Source: a virus
Reading direction: 5' to 3' (one strand)
Length of the DNA: 20,503 bases
Virus record (IMG/VR): IMGVR_UViG_3300018421_000287
Coordinates: 1 to 20,503 of that record
The notes under the pieces were generated by a model. It made no database searches. It was not told the DNA's origin and was given only the letters and a program-made list of their open reading frames with translations. Both the position numbers and the translations under genes were made by a program. Numbering within the stretch: the stretch's first letter is position 1; each line of letters begins with the position of its first letter. Below, in pieces: positions 9,892 through 19,050 of this stretch.

Positions 9892-11076
9892 TTAAAAGAA
9901 AGAATGTTCTTTCACTTTGATTTCGTTTTTTAAATTACTCATTTTCTGAAAAAGTTGTTTATACTTTTCAAAAACATTTTTTGGTTTGTCACTTTTTACC
10001 ATTTCGTCTAAAGCCTTTAGAAGTTTAAACATATCTCTAGAAACCACTTGTTCTAAAACATGGTCATGACTATGTACATAGTATTCTGCTTTGTCAATAG
10101 CTTCTTTGAATATCATTAAGTTATGTAATCTGATTGCAGTAGTACAAGTACTTTTCCATTCTATAGTATCTTCCCAAATAAGTGATTCTCTTAGATATTC
10201 TTTATCAAACTCTGTAGAAACTGGTAGATAAGGAAATGGTTGGTCTTTAAAAGAATCATCATGTTTAGGAACGTTTATAGATTGGAATGAAGCTTTCTTA
10301 AAATTATAATCTAAATAGTAACCACCAAAAACAACTGCTCTATCTGGTGATGAACTATCTGTGGTTACAACTACTTTAGAACCTACTTCGTTTAAAGATT
10401 TCTGTAATTGATTTAACATTAAGAAATCAGATACTTTGGAGATACCTAAAATATGAAACCATTTATTATTTTCATTTAGATGTTCTTTACCATTTAATAA
10501 AGATAAAACACCTGACATAAAAGCATATACATTTCTTCCACCACCACCGACAGCCCATCCTTGAAATGGAAATTGTTTTACTTCATTGTACCAACTTATA
10601 TATTCTAATTCATTTGTACCTTGAACAACATTTAAGAAATCTGTGTTACCACTTTGATTATCTGCAAAGTATTTAAAATTGTCTTTACTGATTCTCAAAC
10701 ACTCTTCGTACTTACCTTCATATTTCATCTTTGGTGGTATATCTAAATTCATTGCAATGTCTGAATTATTTTCTAACCAAACAAAAACTTTTTCTAAAAG
10801 AGACTTATCCCATTTCAAAGCACCTGATGCAATCTGAAATCCACCAGAATCTCCCATAATCAAATTATCTTTTGTAAATCCAAATTCATCATAGAAGTTA
10901 GGATGATTCTTAAAAAAGTGACCTGCAGATATTAAGAACTCGGTATGTCTATATCTTTCAGGAAAGTCTTTTGAATAAAATCTAGATGTCAATCCATTTC
11001 TTAAAATAACATTTTTTCTAAGAGCTTGACCAAATCCAGCTACTGAAAAAGATGGAAAATATTTAAACTTACTCAT
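9892..11076 (-). CDS. dpdA: DpdA-like DNA guanine transglycosylase, 394 aa
   Basis: DpdA is the phage/bacterial relative of tRNA-guanine transglycosylase (TGT) that exchanges guanine in DNA for a 7-deazaguanine such as preQ0. TGT-fold landmarks appear in order: DSGGFQ at 76-81 (general acid region), VVQGT at 150-154, WAVGGGG at 174-180 (the TGT 'GGLAVGE' substrate loop), HILGIS at 208-213, and VTTDSSSPDRA around 237-247, where D240 is the best candidate nucleophile (TGT 'D..DCV.PTR'). The TGT zinc site (CxCxxC...H) is not intact: only STC in the 330s resembles it. Association with folE, queC, queD and queE supports DNA and not tRNA as substrate. It overlaps the phosphoribosyltransferase gene by ATGA. 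Confidence 0.85.
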   Translation of the reverse strand: MSKFKYFPSFSVAGFGQALRKNVILRNGLTSRFYSKDFPERYRHTEFLISAGHFFKNHPNFYDEFGFTKDNLIMGDSGGFQIASGALKWDKSLLEKVFVWLENNSDIAMNLDIPPKMKYEGKYEECLRISKDNFKYFADNQSGNTDFLNVVQGTNELEYISWYNEVKQFPFQGWAVGGGGRNVYAFMSGVLSLLNGKEHLNENNKWFHILGISKVSDFLMLNQLQKSLNEVGSKVVVTTDSSSPDRAVVFGGYYLDYNFKKASFQSINVPKHDDSFKDQPFPYLPVSTEFDKEYLRESLIWEDTIEWKSTCTTAIRLHNLMIFKEAIDKAEYYVHSHDHVLEQVVSRDMFKLLKALDEMVKSDKPKNVFEKYKQLFQKMSNLKNEIKVKEHSFF

Positions 11077-11471
11077 ACTAAATAATCCTGTACTTCTTTA
11101 CTATCTTCACGCTCCCAAGGATAAACAATCCACTTGTCACCCTTTTCACTTATCCAATAATCAGGTACTACTGAAGATTGTTTATGATAATCCAATGTTG
11201 CAAATGTAGCTCCATTACAAACCTCTAGTCTTTTCATTTTTTCTAAAGTAAGACCAGTATCTGCTATATCATCTACAACTAAAAACTTTTTACCATACAT
11301 ATCTCTAAGACTTGTGATTAATGGAATACCCAACTTATGACTTACCAACACTGCAACTATTAGTCCACCTCTAGGTATACCATACACAGCTTCAAAAGAT
11401 TCATGTTCAAGTCTTTGACATAAATCATTTACTCTACCATCAATGTCTTCCCAATTATAAAATACTTTCAT
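11073..11471 (-). CDS. Gpt/Hpt-like purine phosphoribosyltransferase, 132 aa
   Basis: Type I phosphoribosyltransferases join a purine base to PRPP. The PRPP loop is clear at 63-76, FLVVDDIADTGLTL. An upstream 'YGIPRGGLIVAVLVSHKLGIPL' (30-51) matches the PRPP/pyrophosphate-binding region of xanthine-guanine phosphoribosyltransferase. It is shorter than E. coli Gpt (about 152 residues). Its start overlaps the folE stop (TAATG) and its stop overlaps the dpdA start (ATGA), so it is wired between preQ0 synthesis and base exchange. Likely substrates are guanine or xanthine. A role in recycling guanine released by DpdA is my inference. Confidence 0.85.
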   Translation of the reverse strand: MKVFYNWEDIDGRVNDLCQRLEHESFEAVYGIPRGGLIVAVLVSHKLGIPLITSLRDMYGKKFLVVDDIADTGLTLEKMKRLEVCNGATFATLDYHKQSSVVPDYWISEKGDKWIVYPWEREDSKEVQDYLV

Positions 11472-12100
11472 TATTTTAAATCCCTTATAAAATTATAAAA
11501 CTCTTCACGTACTCTAGTTTTATTTTTAAACACATTACTTAACTTTGCAGTCTTCATAATTGCATCATGTTTAACACCACGAACACAAGCACACATGTGA
11601 CTTGCTTCTATCATAACAGCAACACCAATATTATCTATACATTCTTTATGAATGTGGTCATGTATTTGAATTGTTAAATTTTCTTGTACTTGAGGTCTAC
11701 GAGCATAAAACTCAACAATACGATTTAATTTACTTAAACCTATAACCATACCATTTGCTGTAGGTATGTAAGCTACATGAGCATTACCAATAAAAGGTAA
11801 ATGATGATGTGAACAAAAAGAATGTAATTTTATATTACCTTGAAATACTATCCCATCATAATTGTTTACATTTTCAAAAGCTGTTATCTTTGGTGGTTCA
11901 TTATAAACACCACTAGCCAAATCATTAACAAAAGCTTTTGCAACTCTAATCGGTGTGTCTGAAGAATTAGGATCTTCTTTCCAATCAAATCCAAGAGCTG
12001 ACATATAATTACCATAATGTTCAGCAGCTTCTTCAATCATTTCTTGTTTTTCTTTTTCGGTTAATGGATGATTACCATTTGCATGTTTTAATTTATTCAT
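11471..12100 (-). CDS. folE: GTP cyclohydrolase I (FolE), 209 aa
   Basis: Converts GTP to 7,8-dihydroneopterin triphosphate, the first step of both folate and 7-deazaguanine synthesis. Zinc and active-site residues are present: C96 and H99 in [11 protein letters not shown], and C170 in HMCACVRGV. The [13 protein letters not shown] and [24 protein letters not shown] blocks are diagnostic for the type IA family. Length is close to the E. coli enzyme (222 residues). An AAGGAAG Shine-Dalgarno lies within the end of queC, which overlaps by 8 bases. In this cluster its product feeds QueD. Confidence 0.96.
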
Positions 12101-12815
12101 TGATATCTTCCTTATATTTTGTAACGTCTTCTATTCCAGCTTTCTCAAAAGCCAATATTCTATCTGTACATGCTCCACATTTACCACAACCATCACCTGT
12201 GTAACATGATATAGAATTTTCAAAAATATATTTAAAATCTAAACTTAACTCATCACATATATTTTTTGCATCTTTAATTATTTCATATTTCTTTTTATTT
12301 ACATAAGGTAAATAATAATTTATATTTTCTGTATTTACATTTCCTATCTTAAATGCATCTTCTAACTTTTCATAAAATTCTGGTGTACAATCAGGTGGGA
12401 TAATATTACCATCTCCAGCATGTACTCCCAAACAAACATCAACTGCTTCATCAGAATCCTTTGCAATAGAAACTGCAAACCCATAAAGAACTGAAGAGAA
12501 TATTGCATTTCTGTTTGGAACAAAATTCATCTTCATTTTATTTTCATCTGTGGTACCTGTAGGTACATCAACATCAGAACTTGTTAAGGAAGAATTAAAC
12601 GTTCCAAATACTGAAGATAAATCTACTCTTTTATTTTCTATTGTATATTGTTGATACTCAAGATAATGTAAAATACGAGCTAGACCATCTAACTCAACTT
12701 TATTTTTCTGACCATAATAATAACTTATGGTGTGTATGTCGTAACCCTTATGTATAAGATGTAATAACAATGCAGTGGAATCTAGTCCACCACTTAAACT
12801 TAATATTGCTCTCAC
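12093..12815 (-). CDS. queC: 7-cyano-7-deazaguanine (preQ0) synthase QueC, 240 aa
   Basis: ATP-dependent conversion of 7-carboxy-7-deazaguanine to preQ0. The PP-loop SGGLDST is at 8-14, the FVPNRN motif at 98-103, and the C-terminal zinc site is C204, C210, C213, C216 in [17 protein letters not shown]. Length equals normal QueC, so this is not the amidotransferase-fused version used to make ADG-type DNA bases. The gene overlaps the 3-TM gene by ATGA and folE by 8 bases. Confidence 0.96.
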
Positions 12816-13039
12816 TTACTTTTTCTCCAATTAAGATAACCATAAACATTTAAACCCATAAGAACTACTGCAAGTAAAACTTGTGGATTTGCTTTTATGT
12901 AAACAGAATATACTAACATAAATAAATTTCCTAAAAACCAAACTATCCAAGATACTTCTAACTTTCTTGCATTTAGATAGTAACCAAATAAGATACATAT
13001 TGTACCTAACCAACCTATAATATCAAACACCACGAACAT
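12812..13039 (-). CDS. Small three-helix membrane protein (PnuC/SemiSWEET-like size), about 75 aa
   Basis: Three hydrophobic helices are visible: FDIIGWLGTICILFGYYL, WIVWFLGNLFMLVYSVYI and QVLLAVVLMGLNVYGYLNW. The WxxY-type ending '[12 protein letters not shown]' recalls PnuC and related small transporters, but one copy is too short to be a full PnuC and would need to oligomerise. It overlaps queE by at least 17 bases and queC by 4, so it belongs to the preQ0 operon. The start is uncertain: an in-frame TTG at 13045, ATG at 13039, or GTG at 13033/13030. The GTGs lie at the best distance from GGAG. A role in precursor or nicotinamide uptake is speculation. Confidence 0.75.
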   Translation of the reverse strand: MFVVFDIIGWLGTICILFGYYLNARKLEVSWIVWFLGNLFMLVYSVYIKANPQVLLAVVLMGLNVYGYLNWRKSK

Positions 13040-13772
13040 CTCCAAAAGCTATAATATGTAATCGGTCTGTATAATTGTAACCTTCTCGTTCACATATCTC
13101 CATTAACCAAACTCTTCTTTCATTTAGTTGTTCAGATACCAAACCTTCGGGCATTAACCAAACCATATTATTTGGAATGTCTAATATCTTCTGCAACTCT
13201 TTAACTTCTTGTAAATCTTTTTCATTTGATATAACTGGTTTTAACTGATAGTCTTCATGATTGTCAATGAGTTGTCTCATAGCATCGTAGTTACATCTCC
13301 ACTTCTCGTGTTGTTGTTTATCTTTTTCTGTAACCTCACGATTAGCATAGGTCATCCAAGTACCTGGTCTTGGTGTAGAGTTAGATAACTTTGGTGATAG
13401 TGAAATACAATCAGCTTCTGTTTGTACGAACTCACTACCTTCAGTTTCTATTGTTATTGTATGGTCATACTTTTTACCGATAACACATAACTCTTTTAAT
13501 AACTCTGGATGTATTGTAGGACCTCCACCTGTAACCATTGTATGTTTAATTTGTGGATTTGATTCGTATACCTTTACAACATCATTTAATGTGAATATAC
13601 CTTTCTCAGGTTTCCAAGAAGCATAAGGTGTATCACAAAATGAATCTGAGAATTGACATCTCAATCTACAACCGGTAACTCTGATAAGAATATGTGGAAC
13701 ACCCATGTACTTGCCTTCACCTTGAAGACAAGTATATGTTTCACCAAGTGGTTGTTTTTTAGTATAATCCAT
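13023..13772 (-). CDS. queE: 7-carboxy-7-deazaguanine synthase QueE, radical SAM, divergent, 249 aa
   Basis: Radical SAM enzyme that contracts 6-carboxytetrahydropterin to 7-carboxy-7-deazaguanine. The N-terminus ETYTCLQGEGKYMGVPHILIR is the QueE substrate-binding start ('GE..QGEG...G.P..F.R'). The cluster-binding cysteines appear to be C35, C39 and C46 in GCRLRCQFSDSFCDT, that is CX3CX6C where the textbook arrangement ends CX2CDT. SLSPK at 124-128 and the C-terminal 'DRLHIIAFGDVRGV' fit QueE. The SAM motif reads TGGGP (81-85) instead of TGGEP. It lies between an unknown gene and the 3-TM/queC genes. I am confident of the family; the altered motifs are noted separately. Confidence 0.9.
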   Translation of the reverse strand: MDYTKKQPLGETYTCLQGEGKYMGVPHILIRVTGCRLRCQFSDSFCDTPYASWKPEKGIFTLNDVVKVYESNPQIKHTMVTGGGPTIHPELLKELCVIGKKYDHTITIETEGSEFVQTEADCISLSPKLSNSTPRPGTWMTYANREVTEKDKQQHEKWRCNYDAMRQLIDNHEDYQLKPVISNEKDLQEVKELQKILDIPNNMVWLMPEGLVSEQLNERRVWLMEICEREGYNYTDRLHIIAFGDVRGV

Positions 13773-13775
13773 ATT

Positions 13776-14396
13776 TTAGTCCGCTATTAATGGAACTGGT
13801 ATTCCAACTTCTTTATAGTGTTCTAATAACATCTTTTGTTCTAGTGAATGTTTACCACGAGCTATACCATTACTATCATCTTCATCTTCTTTTTGATGTT
13901 CACTCTTTAATATTCTACAAGTAAAGAACAACTCAAGATTATTAGGTAACCACTCATCACACATATACTTCCAATCCCATCCACTATTTATGAACTCCAT
14001 AAATATATGAACTCCAACTTCAGTAACTCCAAATATATGGTCTTTAGTTAATTTCTTCCCAATCTTACGAGCAACTTTTAACTTGTAAGCTTCTTCACTA
14101 AACAACTCAAATCCAACATTAGTTTTATTAAGAGGTAGAACCAAACCATTATATCCTAGTGGTAATCGTAAGAATGAACGAAATTTACCTTTTATATTTT
14201 CAAGGTCACCATTACTATAGTGATTTTTAAAAACATCTGAATCATATGGATTGTCAAGGGCAGCTTCATACTCAGCCTTGACACCCATTAACTTGTTATA
14301 AAAAAATGCTTTTATTTCTTTTTCATTTTCATTCCAATATTTACTTACCTTAATATTAACGAATTTACTATCGTTTACTGGTAACTTTATATTCAT
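13776..14396 (-). CDS. Hypothetical protein inside the preQ0 island, about 206 aa
   Basis: No family recognised. The protein is soluble and mixed alpha/beta, with an aromatic-rich middle (HIFGVTEVGVHIFMEFINSGWDWKYMCDEWLPNNLELFF), an acidic loop (KEDEDDSNG) and a C-terminus ending GIPVPLIAD. I chose the ATG at 14396 over an upstream in-frame ATG at 14417 because AAGGG lies 7 bases before it and an upstream sequence motif has the same distance to it as in another gene. It is separated from queE by only 3 bases, so a link to DNA modification is plausible but unproven. Confidence 0.75.
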   Translation of the reverse strand: MNIKLPVNDSKFVNIKVSKYWNENEKEIKAFFYNKLMGVKAEYEAALDNPYDSDVFKNHYSNGDLENIKGKFRSFLRLPLGYNGLVLPLNKTNVGFELFSEEAYKLKVARKIGKKLTKDHIFGVTEVGVHIFMEFINSGWDWKYMCDEWLPNNLELFFTCRILKSEHQKEDEDDSNGIARGKHSLEQKMLLEHYKEVGIPVPLIAD

Positions 14397-14418
14397 ATTA
14401 AAACCCTTATTTATCATA

Positions 14419-14438
14419 TGTTAAATTACGAAAAAAAA
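14419..14438 (-). promoter_or_regulatory. T8-C-GTAATTTAACA leader motif (copy 1)
   Basis: On the minus strand a run of eight T is followed by CGTAATTTAACA, ending 22 bases before the preferred ATG at 14396. The same 11-mer, also preceded by T8 and also exactly 22 bases from an ATG, occurs at 17142-17160. It may be a promoter. The T-run also follows the upstream ParB-like gene, where a weak ACAA/TTGT hairpin could aid termination. Confidence 0.4.
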
Positions 14439-14447
14439 CAACATTTG

Positions 14448-15512
14448 TCAAGCAGTTTTTTTTACTTTTTTAAAGTATTTTTCTTCTAATACTAACATTT
14501 TTTCATGAATAAAATGACTAAATAAAATACTACCACCTGGAAAACCACCTTTGTCTGGTATCATATTTACTATTCTATCTCCGATATATGTTATATATTG
14601 TTTAAATTCGAAGAAGTGTGAATCTGAATATAGGTCACCTGAGATAGGAAAACAATTTTTCACTGTATCAGCTTTCACAACACCACTCTTATCGTACGCT
14701 TGACCTTTGAATCTTGAGTTTATGGTTGATGTTCTAAGGTACTTTGCAAGAAGTGTTAGGAAAGGAGCCTTTGCATCTTTACTACCATGTTCAACTCTAA
14801 TATCAAATAACACTTTTAATATTTCATCCGAATATCTTTTGAATCTCATATCAAAAGGTATGTTTGCTTCTATTCTCATTTCTTCAGTTAATGCATTAAT
14901 TGTTCCACCTAGAACAACTTTATTACTTAAGTTACCATGATACTTTTTCATCTGTGATGTTAAATATTCCCAAACTTCTTTTTGAACTTTGTCTGTTATA
15001 GCACGTGAACCAGTTGAAATGAAATCGTAATCTGTCCACTTCATTTGACCAGTATTTAATGTCACTAATGTAGTCCATAGTCTTTCTATGATATCTTCAT
15101 CTACATTAGTACTATCTTTGAGAACTATATGTGTTACATCTAGGACAGGTAGCATACCTTCAATGTCTGTACCTTTATTAAATATAGCTCCTTCCTCTTC
15201 CAAGTCTTTACAAACTCGTATTCTACCATTAACATCAACTGCTAACCAATAACCTTTCTTATATGATTTCTCAAACAGTATGACATCATTTGGTAATTGT
15301 ATACCTATGACACCAACTAAAAATCCATTTTTTCTAATTGAATCTATTAATGTGTCATATGCTTTTCGAACAGCTGGGACATCTAAATCCCATCTTGTGG
15401 CATCGGTGTCACCACCGTTCAAACCAACAGGTTCTAGTATTTTATTAAGAGGTACGTATCGTATTTTTGGTGTGAGTATTGTAAAGGTCTTCACCTTGTT
15501 TTTATAATCCAT
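14448..15512 (-). CDS. ParB/Srx-like N-terminal-domain protein, 354 aa
   Basis: Residues about 15-170 resemble the ParB/sulfiredoxin fold seen in many phage DNA-associated proteins: 'YVPLNKILEPV', 'DTLIDSIRKNGFLVGVIGIQ', 'YWLAVDVNGRIRVCKDLEE' (the GxxR pocket), and 'LVTLNTGQMKWTDYDFISTG', which matches the 'NT...W...D' segment of this family. The C-terminal half is helical and unassigned. The family includes DNA-binding proteins, nucleases and CTP-dependent switches, and I cannot tell which applies here. It lies inside the preQ0 island, preceded by a perfect 20-bp palindrome and a 105-bp leader, so it likely has its own regulation. The Shine-Dalgarno (AGAAAG) is weak. Confidence 0.65.
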   Translation of the reverse strand: MDYKNKVKTFTILTPKIRYVPLNKILEPVGLNGGDTDATRWDLDVPAVRKAYDTLIDSIRKNGFLVGVIGIQLPNDVILFEKSYKKGYWLAVDVNGRIRVCKDLEEEGAIFNKGTDIEGMLPVLDVTHIVLKDSTNVDEDIIERLWTTLVTLNTGQMKWTDYDFISTGSRAITDKVQKEVWEYLTSQMKKYHGNLSNKVVLGGTINALTEEMRIEANIPFDMRFKRYSDEILKVLFDIRVEHGSKDAKAPFLTLLAKYLRTSTINSRFKGQAYDKSGVVKADTVKNCFPISGDLYSDSHFFEFKQYITYIGDRIVNMIPDKGGFPGGSILFSHFIHEKMLVLEEKYFKKVKKTA

Positions 15513-15524
15513 TTTATTCTTTCT

Positions 15525-15544
15525 GATTAATCTATAGATTAATC
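15525..15544. promoter_or_regulatory. Perfect 20-bp palindrome in the leader of the ParB-like gene
   Basis: Half-site GATTAATCTA followed by its exact reverse complement, ending 12 bases before the ATG of the ParB-like gene. It could be an operator for a dimeric DNA-binding protein, or form an RNA hairpin next to the weak ribosome-binding site. No T-run follows it, so it is not a terminator. Confidence 0.65.
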
Positions 15545-15617
15545 TTGATTTAAGTTAAAAAACAAACTACTTCTGTGTTGTTTTTATATAAGTATAATCA
15601 AGTTACTGAAAATACAA

Positions 15618-16064
15618 TTATTTTTTTCCTATATGATATTCTGCCATATTATCTTCGTGTTCCCAACATTGAACTTTAGATACAGAAGCTCTTCCATCTG
15701 TTTCTCTTTGTACAACGTCTTGTAAATACTTTGCAACTAACTCAGCAAACTTTTCACATCCAACACCATTCTCTAATATTCGTAAATCTATAACTCCACG
15801 ATTATGCATTTCTTTGAACATCTCAAGTTCAGGATCGTCAGCAGCAACACAAGTGGTATGGTCAAACATATTCTTTAACCATTCTTTGACTCCGTTACGT
15901 TTAAAACATCCAAAGTCAATTACCCAACCATTGTCATCTAGTTCACCTTCGAACCAAACTTTAAAACAGAATGCATATCCATGAATTAATTTACAATGTG
16001 AATCAGCTCTCCATTGTCTGAAAGCTGTACTATAACCTATAAAACGTTTATAACTTTTATACAT
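15618..16064 (-). CDS. queD: QueD / 6-pyruvoyl-tetrahydropterin synthase family, divergent metal site, 148 aa
   Basis: QueD converts dihydroneopterin triphosphate to 6-carboxytetrahydropterin, linking FolE to QueE. Fold landmarks are present: C24-KLI-HG at 24-29, GELDDNGWVIDFG (40-52), FDHT at 67-70, and a late 'VQCWEHEDNMAEY'. Two of the three usual zinc histidines are not in place: the 'AAH' motif reads TAFRQW, and HGH reads HGY. This may be a phage-type subfamily using other ligands such as H23. I chose the ATG at 16064 because GGGAG lies 4-5 bases before it; an upstream ATG at 16088 lies inside the previous gene. Context with folE, queC and queE supports the role. Confidence 0.82.
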   Translation of the reverse strand: MYKSYKRFIGYSTAFRQWRADSHCKLIHGYAFCFKVWFEGELDDNGWVIDFGCFKRNGVKEWLKNMFDHTTCVAADDPELEMFKEMHNRGVIDLRILENGVGCEKFAELVAKYLQDVVQRETDGRASVSKVQCWEHEDNMAEYHIGKK

Positions 16065-16386
16065 ATTTCTCCCAAGGTGATGGTTCATAATGAGCTTCTA
16101 CTTCGAAAATAAATCTATTTGGAACTAACTTATTTTGTTTCTTACTCCAATTTTTCTCACTATCTGAAATCATACTTTCGTGTCTATCATCGTACTTTAT
16201 ATATCTTAAAACCTTAATAGGAAACGTAGTTGGCCCTGCTTTGGGAAAATCAATATCATGAACCTTGACATCGACTATTTTTCCTATGTTTCTTTTTAAT
16301 ATATTTGATTCTTTTTTATCTGCATGATAATATCCTATATCTGAATTGAACTTATGTTTAGCCCAACTTACTATAGTATCTCTCAT
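16057..16386 (-). CDS. Hypothetical protein, 109 aa
   Basis: Small, basic, soluble protein with no recognisable family. Beta-strand-rich stretches (GKIVDVKVHDIDFP, FPIKVLRYIKYD, RFIFEVEAHYEP) suggest a compact beta fold. Its stop overlaps the queD start by 8 bases and its start is TAATG-coupled to the SelW-like gene, so it travels with the preQ0 island. No metal-binding or catalytic motif is evident. Confidence 0.75.
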   Translation of the reverse strand: MRDTIVSWAKHKFNSDIGYYHADKKESNILKRNIGKIVDVKVHDIDFPKAGPTTFPIKVLRYIKYDDRHESMISDSEKNWSKKQNKLVPNRFIFEVEAHYEPSPWEKYV

Positions 16387-17162: not shown

Positions 17163-17581
17163 TCGTGGAGCTGGTGGGATTCGAACCCACGTCCAGTCTG
17201 TTTTCTTCAACGAGTCATTCACAGCTTAGTTCAGTTTCAATAAGAAGTAACTGACAAACCACTTACAACTTTGCTCAGAGTTGTCAACTGGTAGTTTCTT
17301 TAATCTCTAACTTCTATCCTAACTAAAGAGATGGTGTCTAACTTTTTTTATGACCGAGTGTTAGACAACTCAGTATCTTATGCAGCGTATGCGTAAGATG
17401 GTTGAGAATCACCAATCGGTAATTCAACTGAGTAATCATACTCAGCTAAATGCCAATCGATGTCCAACCCTTCTAGCGATTGTTCGCCATATAGAATTGT
17501 GAGTCTTTTGTAACGAGACATACTCAATCTCTGCTGCACTCCATTGTCAAATAACACCTGTCGATTTCCAAATACAGCCCC
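17163..17581 (-). ncRNA. ssrA: tmRNA (one-piece), with an unusually long tag reading frame
   Basis: Rescues stalled ribosomes with SmpB. The 5' end (GGGGCTG, then TTTGG...TCGACAGG) and 3' T-arm (GTGGG-TTCGAAT-CCCAC, then CAGCTCC) form the tRNA-like domain and pair as an acceptor stem. Four pseudoknots can be drawn. PK1 is GAGA/TCTC (17528-17531 with 17515-17518) interlocked with TTGAGT/ACTCA. After the tag come CTGAG/CTCGG interlocked with TTGTCTAAC/GTTAGACA, then ATCTCT/AGAGAT with CTTTA/TAAAG, then ACAACT/AGTTGT with a GTTGACAA pairing. The tag starts 11 nt after PK1 as in E. coli, with U and A conserved at -5 and -4. The resume codon is GGC (17488) and the stop TAA (17378-17380). CCA is not encoded; the 3' end reads ACGA. 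A weak -35 (TTGACA, 17616-17611) lies upstream. Confidence 0.95.
17378..17488 (-). other. tmRNA tag-peptide reading frame, 36 codons plus stop
   Basis: Starts GEQSLEGLDID and ends QPSYAYAA followed by TAA. By the E. coli spacing rule the resume codon is GGC at 17488-17486. The peptide contains about eight acidic residues and no Lys or Arg. An in-frame ATG eleven codons earlier (17521) overlaps PK1 and is unlikely to be used. Ordinary tags are often 8-15 residues and end in (A)LAA. Confidence 0.85.
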
Positions 17582-17587
17582 ATATTT

Positions 17588-17749
17588 TTACCAATCTTCA
17601 GTATTGTAGTTGTCAAAAGGATTATCAATTGCTTCTCTAATCTGACTTACTACATCGTCAATTCCATCCCAATTTTCTTCCTCAACTGCTTCTTCTAAAT
17701 TATTTAGAATCTCTTCTAACAACTCTTGATATGCTTCACTGCTATCCAT
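17588..17749 (-). CDS. Small acidic helical protein, 53 aa
   Basis: Reads MDSSEAYQELLEEILNNLEE at the start and ends DNPFDNYNTEDW. It is strongly acidic and helical, with no recognised family. An AGGAGG Shine-Dalgarno, itself the last codons of the gene before, sits before the ATG. The stop lies 7 bases from the tmRNA 5' end, so the tmRNA may be processed from a shared transcript. Small acidic proteins in phages can be DNA mimics or inhibitors, but nothing here proves that. Confidence 0.75.
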   Translation of the reverse strand: MDSSEAYQELLEEILNNLEEAVEEENWDGIDDVVSQIREAIDNPFDNYNTEDW

Positions 17750-17924: not shown

Positions 17925-18430
17925 TTCTCAATCTCCTTATCGTTAAATTTGTCAAAATATTTTGTTTTAATTAAACTCTTATGTGCCTTATTTAATTCTT
18001 TTCTTGTGGCAACATTAATTAAAAAGTATGGTGATTTTTTTCTAGTCTCCTCACCACCAGCACTCCATTCTTCATACGGTGAAAAACAAAGAGCTTTGTA
18101 ATCTGTGTATTGTAAAAAATCTTGTAAAGTATTCTGATACTTTTTTCTAGTCACATCTTTCCATCTTAGGTTTTTACTATCAGTACATATAAATAATGCT
18201 GAGTGATATTTTGACTCAAAAAACTCTTCGAACAAACTATCTAAAGAAACCTTAGTTGGTCGCCAAACTTTTACAAATAATCTGTCACTCATTCTTTCAG
18301 GTTTCAGAAAAGGACAAACTGGCATACCAGAAAATGCATCGTTTGGTTTTTCTAGATAATCAAAATACTGTTCAGTTTCTAGAATCATCTGTTCGTCACT
18401 TTTGTTAAATAGTTCTAATTGATACAACAT
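17894..18430 (-). CDS. Hypothetical protein, 178 aa
   Basis: No family recognised. Contains '[26 protein letters not shown]' around residues 33-58, an alpha/beta-like core ([46 protein letters not shown]), and a basic Lys-rich C-terminus ending YPKKKK. The start overlaps the deformylase gene by 16 bases. There is no signal peptide or membrane segment unless it is frameshifted into the next frame. Confidence 0.75.
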
Positions 18431-19050
18431 TTTTTATATTTTTTTCCACTACCACAAGGACATGGTTCATTACGACCAATCTTTGGTTTATCTCTTCTGA
18501 TGGTAAGTTCCATAGCTCTATCTAATATTCTCATACCATTAAGATGGTCAATCTCATGTTGAACACAAACCGATTCTAATAAATCTAAATCTGTATCTCC
18601 ACCACCAAAGGTCATATTACTTTCCATATTATCCACTTTAACTTCTATAGTCTTATATCTTTTAGTGTGACAACCTTTTTTTGGATAACTCAAACAACCT
18701 TCATAATATCTTATTTCTTCTTCTTTACTAACGATTTCAGGATTAACAAGAACGATTGGCTCTTTGACGTTAACCACGGCAACCGAAGCATCAATTCCCA
18801 CTTGATTCGCTGCCAACCCAATGCCGTCCCCTCTTTTGTTAAGTACTTGAAATATTTTTGTTGCAATCTCATATCCTTCTTCAACTGATACTCTCCTTAA
18901 CTTTTTTTGTATTAACGGATTATCTTCTTTAAAACAATTTATAACTTTCAATATAGTATTGTCCTTTGTGTGTTTAGGTTCGTATGGACACATCAAACAT
19001 CCATGTCCACAACAATAACCTCGTTCTGTTAAAAACTCTCTTGATAACAT
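18415..19050 (-). CDS. def: Peptide deformylase with Cys-rich N-terminal and SEC-C C-terminal modules, 211 aa
   Basis: Removes the formyl group from nascent-protein N-termini. All three catalytic motifs are present: GIGLAANQ (76-83), EGCLS (117-121), with Cys a metal ligand, and QHEIDH (164-169), giving the two His ligands and Glu. Before the enzyme lies a Cys-rich '[17 protein letters not shown]' (C13, C14, C18, C21), resembling the DUF5522 motif. After it comes a SecA-type SEC-C zinc tail, [18 protein letters not shown] (192-209; C197, C199, C208, C209). Phage deformylases are often trimmed at the C-terminus; here a Zn tail takes the place of the ribosome-binding helix. It is TAATG-coupled to the upstream Zn-ribbon gene. 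Confidence 0.95.

Follow-up and report, generated by a model that had tools for sequence, protein, structure and literature searches.

Tags encoded by tmRNA are usually regarded as short degradation signals whose interior is free to vary. The DNA analysed here (the window, a whole stretch of 20,503 nucleotides from IMG/VR virus record IMGVR_UViG_3300018421_000287) raises the question of whether this view holds for phages: a preliminary description, made from the sequence, proposed that it carries a phage tmRNA with a 36-residue, highly acidic tag ending YAYAA. Is this long tag real, and what could it do during infection? We confirmed that the observation, a phage tmRNA with a 36-codon tag, is genuine. 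It is a widespread variant of phage tmRNA, and more than 100 phage contigs keep the long tag with its middle under strong purifying selection. The tag exceeds the reviewed range of lengths and is truncated by a standard annotation tool, ARAGORN. It offers a concrete handle on why phages carry tmRNA, either as a spare rescue RNA or as a means of controlling the fate of unfinished proteins.

The gene was identified by cmscan as tmRNA (Rfam RF00023) with 79.8 bits and E = 8e-30, the gathering score being 47 bits, and the match spans the full model (positions 1-374), in agreement with the preliminary placement. Its 5' end, GGGGCUG, pairs with CAGCUCC, and the third acceptor pair is the G.U that confers alanine identity. 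The 3' CCA is not encoded in the window, where the discriminator A is followed by CGA (3' end ACGA). PK1 consists of GAGA/TCTC and GAGT/ACTC, and further pseudoknots are present 3' of the tag frame. ARAGORN also found a tmRNA in the window, but placed its 5' end at 17665 and reported only the last 21 tag residues; we rejected these boundaries, which the homologues do not support.

Table. Features of the tmRNA locus, in window coordinates.
Feature	Position	Strand	Evidence or remark
tmRNA (ssrA) gene, one-piece	17163..17581	-	RF00023 79.8 bits, full model
Acceptor stem 5' strand GGGGCUG, third pair G.U wobble	17575..17581	-	G-U in 42/42 sequences
Pseudoknot PK1	17501..17531	-	found in 52/52 relatives
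Frame-setting UAUAU before resume codon (U at -5, A at -4)	17489..17493	-	-4 A in 52/52 relatives (count partly circular)
Tag reading frame, 36 codons + TAA: GEQSLEGLDIDWHLAEYDYSVELPIGDSQPSYAYAA	17378..17488	-	frame kept in homologues
Conserved internal module SLEGLDIDWHLAEYDY	17432..17479	-	near-invariant positions in 44 distinct tags
C-terminal SYAYAA, candidate degron end	17381..17398	-	similar ends in relatives and cellular tags
Pseudoknot PK2	17335..17374	-	two helices, compensatory changes
PK3 region	17292..17332	-	helix ATCTC/GAGAT in window
T arm and 3' acceptor strand of tRNA-like domain	17167..17190	-	compensatory pairing
53-residue acidic ORF, candidate partner gene	17588..17749	-	ends 6 nt before tmRNA

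Relatives were collected by several scans. With the neighbouring QueD-like protein we reached phage contigs, six of which have a homologous tmRNA above the cut-off. Five others above it came from a DNA pattern based on the conserved PK3 region. When IMG/VR was scanned with the tag alignment, 110 places were confirmed, and we kept 80 of them. Wherever a kept place is not cut by a contig end, the 3' tRNA-like motif lies downstream of the tag stop. The samples used below comprise 52 distinct full-length tmRNAs, 44 distinct tags, 42 aligned sequences and 37 distinct core blocks. Homologous tmRNAs score 69-103 bits with the covariance model.

We then considered the RNA itself in the 42 aligned sequences. 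Its helices are paired in 89.8% of cells, a value that falls to about 40% when they are slid, and they contain 116 double-sided changes, compared with 33 in shuffles. The T stem is paired in 100% of cells with 39 double-sided compensatory cells, the acceptor stem in 97.6% with double-sided changes present, and the two helices of PK2 in 99.7% and 97.0%; the form of PK3 varies among relatives. PK1 seems weaker in the alignment because its forms differ and are misaligned, and when each sequence was searched singly its pairing was found in 52/52. The RNA structure is under selection in addition to the peptide.

The resume codon of E. coli tmRNA follows PK1 by 12 nt; the frame is set mainly by A86, at position -4, and U85 has a role in it as well (PMC2481249). 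In the window, PK1 ends 11-12 nt before GGC 17488, the exact figure varying with the treatment of its last pair; U occupies position -5 and A position -4. The model's resume codon aligns with this same GGC, the codon that the preliminary description had derived from the E. coli spacing. From there the frame runs, without a start codon, over 36 codons to TAA 17380-17378. The distance from PK1 to the resume codon is 11-13 nt in all 52 full-length tmRNAs. An A at -4 also fits all 52, a count that is partly circular because A at -4 was itself our script's condition for accepting an offset of 9 or 10 codons, although no sequence failed. The resume codon is GGC in 46 of them and AGC, GAC or GAU in the other 6. 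A tag frame that ends in a stop and has no start codon is conserved in all relatives.

Comparison with related phages likewise upheld the tag. The frame is kept in all 52 full-length relatives, indels among them being multiples of three, and the tag measures 34-42 codons, except for one that reads through to 49. This read-through is seen in L223 and L225, which have lost the tag stop, so that their frame continues into PK2 (...YAYAQVSELSNTRT*) and gives a tag of 49 codons. A review gives a tag range of 8-35 residues (PMC8012679), and a 2025 database paper reports 10 residues as the commonest length and 2 as extremely short (PMC11915505). Lengths in the literature run from about 2 to 35 residues. 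With 36 codons here and 34-42 in relatives, the length is outside the reviewed range, and the preliminary description was right to call it unusual. It was also right about the composition, 8 acidic residues and no Lys or Arg before the SYAYAA end; the net charge of the 52 tags is -4 to -9, and Lys and Arg are absent from 40 of them.

The middle of the tag is strongly conserved. In 44 distinct tags, L5, L8, D11, W12 and H13 are invariant, and G7, I10, L14 and A15 almost never vary. The 12-codon core block SLxGLxIDWHLA has a pN/pS of 0.196 (pS 0.416, pN 0.081). The +1 frame is closed in 37/37 distinct core blocks and the +2 frame in 27/37. Judged from these substitutions, the tag is under purifying selection as a peptide. 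AlphaFold gave no confident fold for it (pLDDT 60), which is expected of a linear motif. The module does not match any known adaptor-binding motif in Pfam, PHROGs or PDB, and searches of the whole tag against proteins (phages, Pfam, PHROGs, PDB) gave nothing convincing.

These data bear on two other readings of the frame. If translation resumed one base later, at GCG, the product would be a peptide AxxR* of 4 codons, and 29 of the 52 relatives do encode a 4-codon peptide in this +1 frame; ARAGORN also gives shorter tags, of 11-25 residues in relatives. However, the +1 frame has 3 to 13 codons in the remaining relatives, and using it would break the rule of A at -4; we discarded it on these grounds. 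The ARAGORN tag start differs between near-identical relatives, and the codon selection extends through the part that it omits. A short true tag is thus extremely improbable. The other reading is that a protein gene was the source of a captured module, or that the frame is part of a longer protein overlapping the tmRNA (MSRYKRLTILYGEQ...). The window frame is indeed open upstream through the tRNA-like domain, but in many relatives it closes within 6-20 codons on that side; the tag therefore does not belong to any longer ORF, and this candidate was dropped. Against capture, the module occurs in no protein of the phages, Pfam, PHROGs or PDB searched, and the retained matches with enough sequence all have a downstream tRNA-like domain, contig-end truncations excepted. 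We regard this second reading as very unlikely.

The C-terminal end is less peculiar than first thought. The only cellular-genome match of the tag is a phage-like contig in the MAG TMED198, a contig that may be mis-binned, and we compared the ends with cellular tmRNAs of the same phylum. Their tags, mostly of 8-10 residues, include ADNYAYAA, ANNYAYAA, ADNFAYAA, ...VAYA, ADYGYMAAA and GESNYALAA; several of these resemble the YAYAA end, which the preliminary description had set apart as abnormal. Among the 52 phage tags, 30 end in AYAA and 10 in YAYA, the rest having other Ala/Ser-rich ends except the one read-through. A small apolar C-terminal end (AYAA, YAYA, YAAA, AYTA and similar) is thus present. 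Since cellular tags have the aromatic-Ala end too, the phage tag can be read as having a usual beginning (GE/GD) and, as its end, a usual Ala-rich degron, separated by about 26 extra acidic residues. The surprise lies in this conserved insert and in a linked acidic gene, not in the YAYAA end. In the order of TMED198, cellular tags mostly end in YAAAA; one cellular tmRNA of this order (L304) has an odd ARAGORN tag, ENSFTSVNIQDSFILL, probably from a misread frame.

The window tmRNA shares with bacterial one-piece tmRNA (RF00023) the tRNA-like domain, the G.U alanine pair, PK1 and further pseudoknots, as well as a resume codon with A at -4 and a tag frame with a stop. In the phage family, unlike the bacterial RNAs, the tag has 34-42 codons and includes a conserved internal module, CCA is mostly not encoded and the phage carriers are without detected smpB. 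The E. coli ssrA tag AANDENYALAA has an adaptor (SspB) site in its N-terminal part and a protease signal in its C-terminal part. The phage module, unlike this tag, is much longer and has no recognisable SspB motif. The Mesoplasma florum ssrA tag, AANKNEENTNEVPTFMLNAGQANYAFA, is likewise long and acidic with an aromatic-Ala end (YAFA as against YAYA/YAYAA) and is read by Lon (PMC9097571), but its internal sequence is unrelated and it is 10 residues shorter than the phage tag.

An ssrA gene is also found on the genomes of Bxz1-like mycobacteriophages, Bacillus phage G, the OM43 phage Melnitz, whose tmRNA is two-piece unlike that of the window, and huge phages; the present tag family is not reported in this literature (PMC4131195, PMC9004378, PMC7162821). 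With 402 phages known to carry tmRNA by 2021 (PMC9004378), such genes are commoner than the preliminary description implied. The huge phage LR756508, which is distantly related through its baseplate protein (40%), has a tmRNA (L036:1501-1947) whose frame, set by the same rules, is GVNNADYESAGFTAEDFAQMDGESLYHGSERKPAAV. This tag has the same length as that of the window, 36 codons, but a different sequence, and ARAGORN reads it as GRRKPLSW, so that long phage tags may be under-recorded. LR756508 also has a 112-nt sequence (L038:1501-1612) that matches the tmRNA model at 58 bits but lacks most of the mRNA-like part; it resembles the tRNA-like-domain-only RNA of mycobacteriophage DS6A, a reported tmRNA inhibitor.

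We looked for possible partners among the neighbouring genes. An HMM of the acidic ORF of the table has a match on the upstream side of the tmRNA in 61 of 75 relatives (L162-L241); in 57 of the 75, no more than about 11 nt separate the ORF's stop from the tmRNA 5' end. The homologues have about 45-55 residues and the motif LxEAxExxDWDLVxExI; no known family matched. This linkage makes the acidic ORF the best candidate partner, although it is no strict requirement because about a fifth of the loci are without it. SmpB was detected neither in 25 contigs nor in 14 long contigs of up to 165 kb, these contigs being incomplete, while the control search matched 10 of 14 control genomes; host SmpB is therefore probably borrowed. 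Of 10 long contigs, only 2 yielded ClpP, so that a phage-encoded protease is no general partner. A peptide deformylase fused to a SEC-C motif, with a DUF5522-like N-terminus, is encoded at 18415-19050 (-) and lies near the tmRNA in many relatives.

The RNA structure, resume codon, frame, peptide selection, length and linkage are all read from the sequence, and the long tag with its conserved middle suggests that the virus marks unfinished proteins in its own way. The reading that we favour, to which we give about an even chance, is a working phage tmRNA that would use host SmpB and alanyl-tRNA synthetase and whose long tag would carry an extra recognition site. Host alanyl-tRNA synthetase would charge the tmRNA with alanine, and host SmpB would carry it into ribosomes stalled on cut or non-stop mRNAs during infection. 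Translation would resume at GGC 17488, adding alanine and the 36-residue acidic tag and freeing the ribosome. The Ala-rich end would then offer an ordinary protease signal; the module SLxGLxIDWHLAEYDY and a variable linker lie between the first residues and this degron. We infer that the module most likely provides an additional site to be recognised, either by an adaptor of a host protease or by a phage partner, for example the upstream acidic ORF. Proteins tagged in infection would thus meet a handling different from that of host-tagged proteins; tmRNA activity, use of host SmpB and proteolysis are likewise inferred in this scheme. A more specific version, which we put forward only tentatively, is a two-gene cassette: the tag would have a dedicated protein-binding module, the acidic protein of about 50 residues would bind the tag or a host protease, and stalled proteins would go to a fate chosen by the phage.

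Alternatively, the insert could be a mere spacer or reflect a structural constraint, the tag being an ordinary degradation tag, long by chance, whose middle has no partner. The ordinary kind of C-terminal end and the absence of an AlphaFold fold are in line with this, and long tags exist elsewhere: that of M. florum, counted with its Ala, has 27 aa (PMC9097571), and tags of 20-26 aa occur in other phage tmRNAs among the matches listed, in a survey biased to enterobacterial prophages. However, a mere spacer would not retain W and H, and the five invariant positions and the low pN/pS of the core make this explanation unlikely. The tag might instead divert or block proteolysis, the acidic module protecting phage fragments or jamming ClpXP or its adaptor and so titrating host quality control. 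A strong negative charge together with a conserved module is unlike degradation tags, and phage RNAs reduced to the tRNA-like domain are known to inhibit tmRNA by competition (PMC4131195). Almost all relatives nevertheless retain a protease-readable Ala-rich end, and we consider such a diversion doubtful.

The tmRNA belongs to a large family of uncultured phages, and its carriers are probably marine viruses of bacteria. The tag search found no match in the annotated phages of INPHARED, and in Mel-JY01 and immuto, the nearest relatives in culture, no tmRNA scored above the cut-off. The baseplate protein matches Flavobacterium and Microcystis phages at 41-45%, and the QueD DNA resembles that of Cellulophaga phages. 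In the six tmRNA-bearing contigs found with the QueD-like protein, the usual gene order is PDF - (o178) - acidic ORF - tmRNA - o169 - queD. In the window, a queuosine-type cluster occupies 9892-16088 (-), with QueC, QueD, QueE, FolE and a TGT/DpdA-like protein (Pfam TGT E 2e-4), which suggests modified DNA or tRNA.
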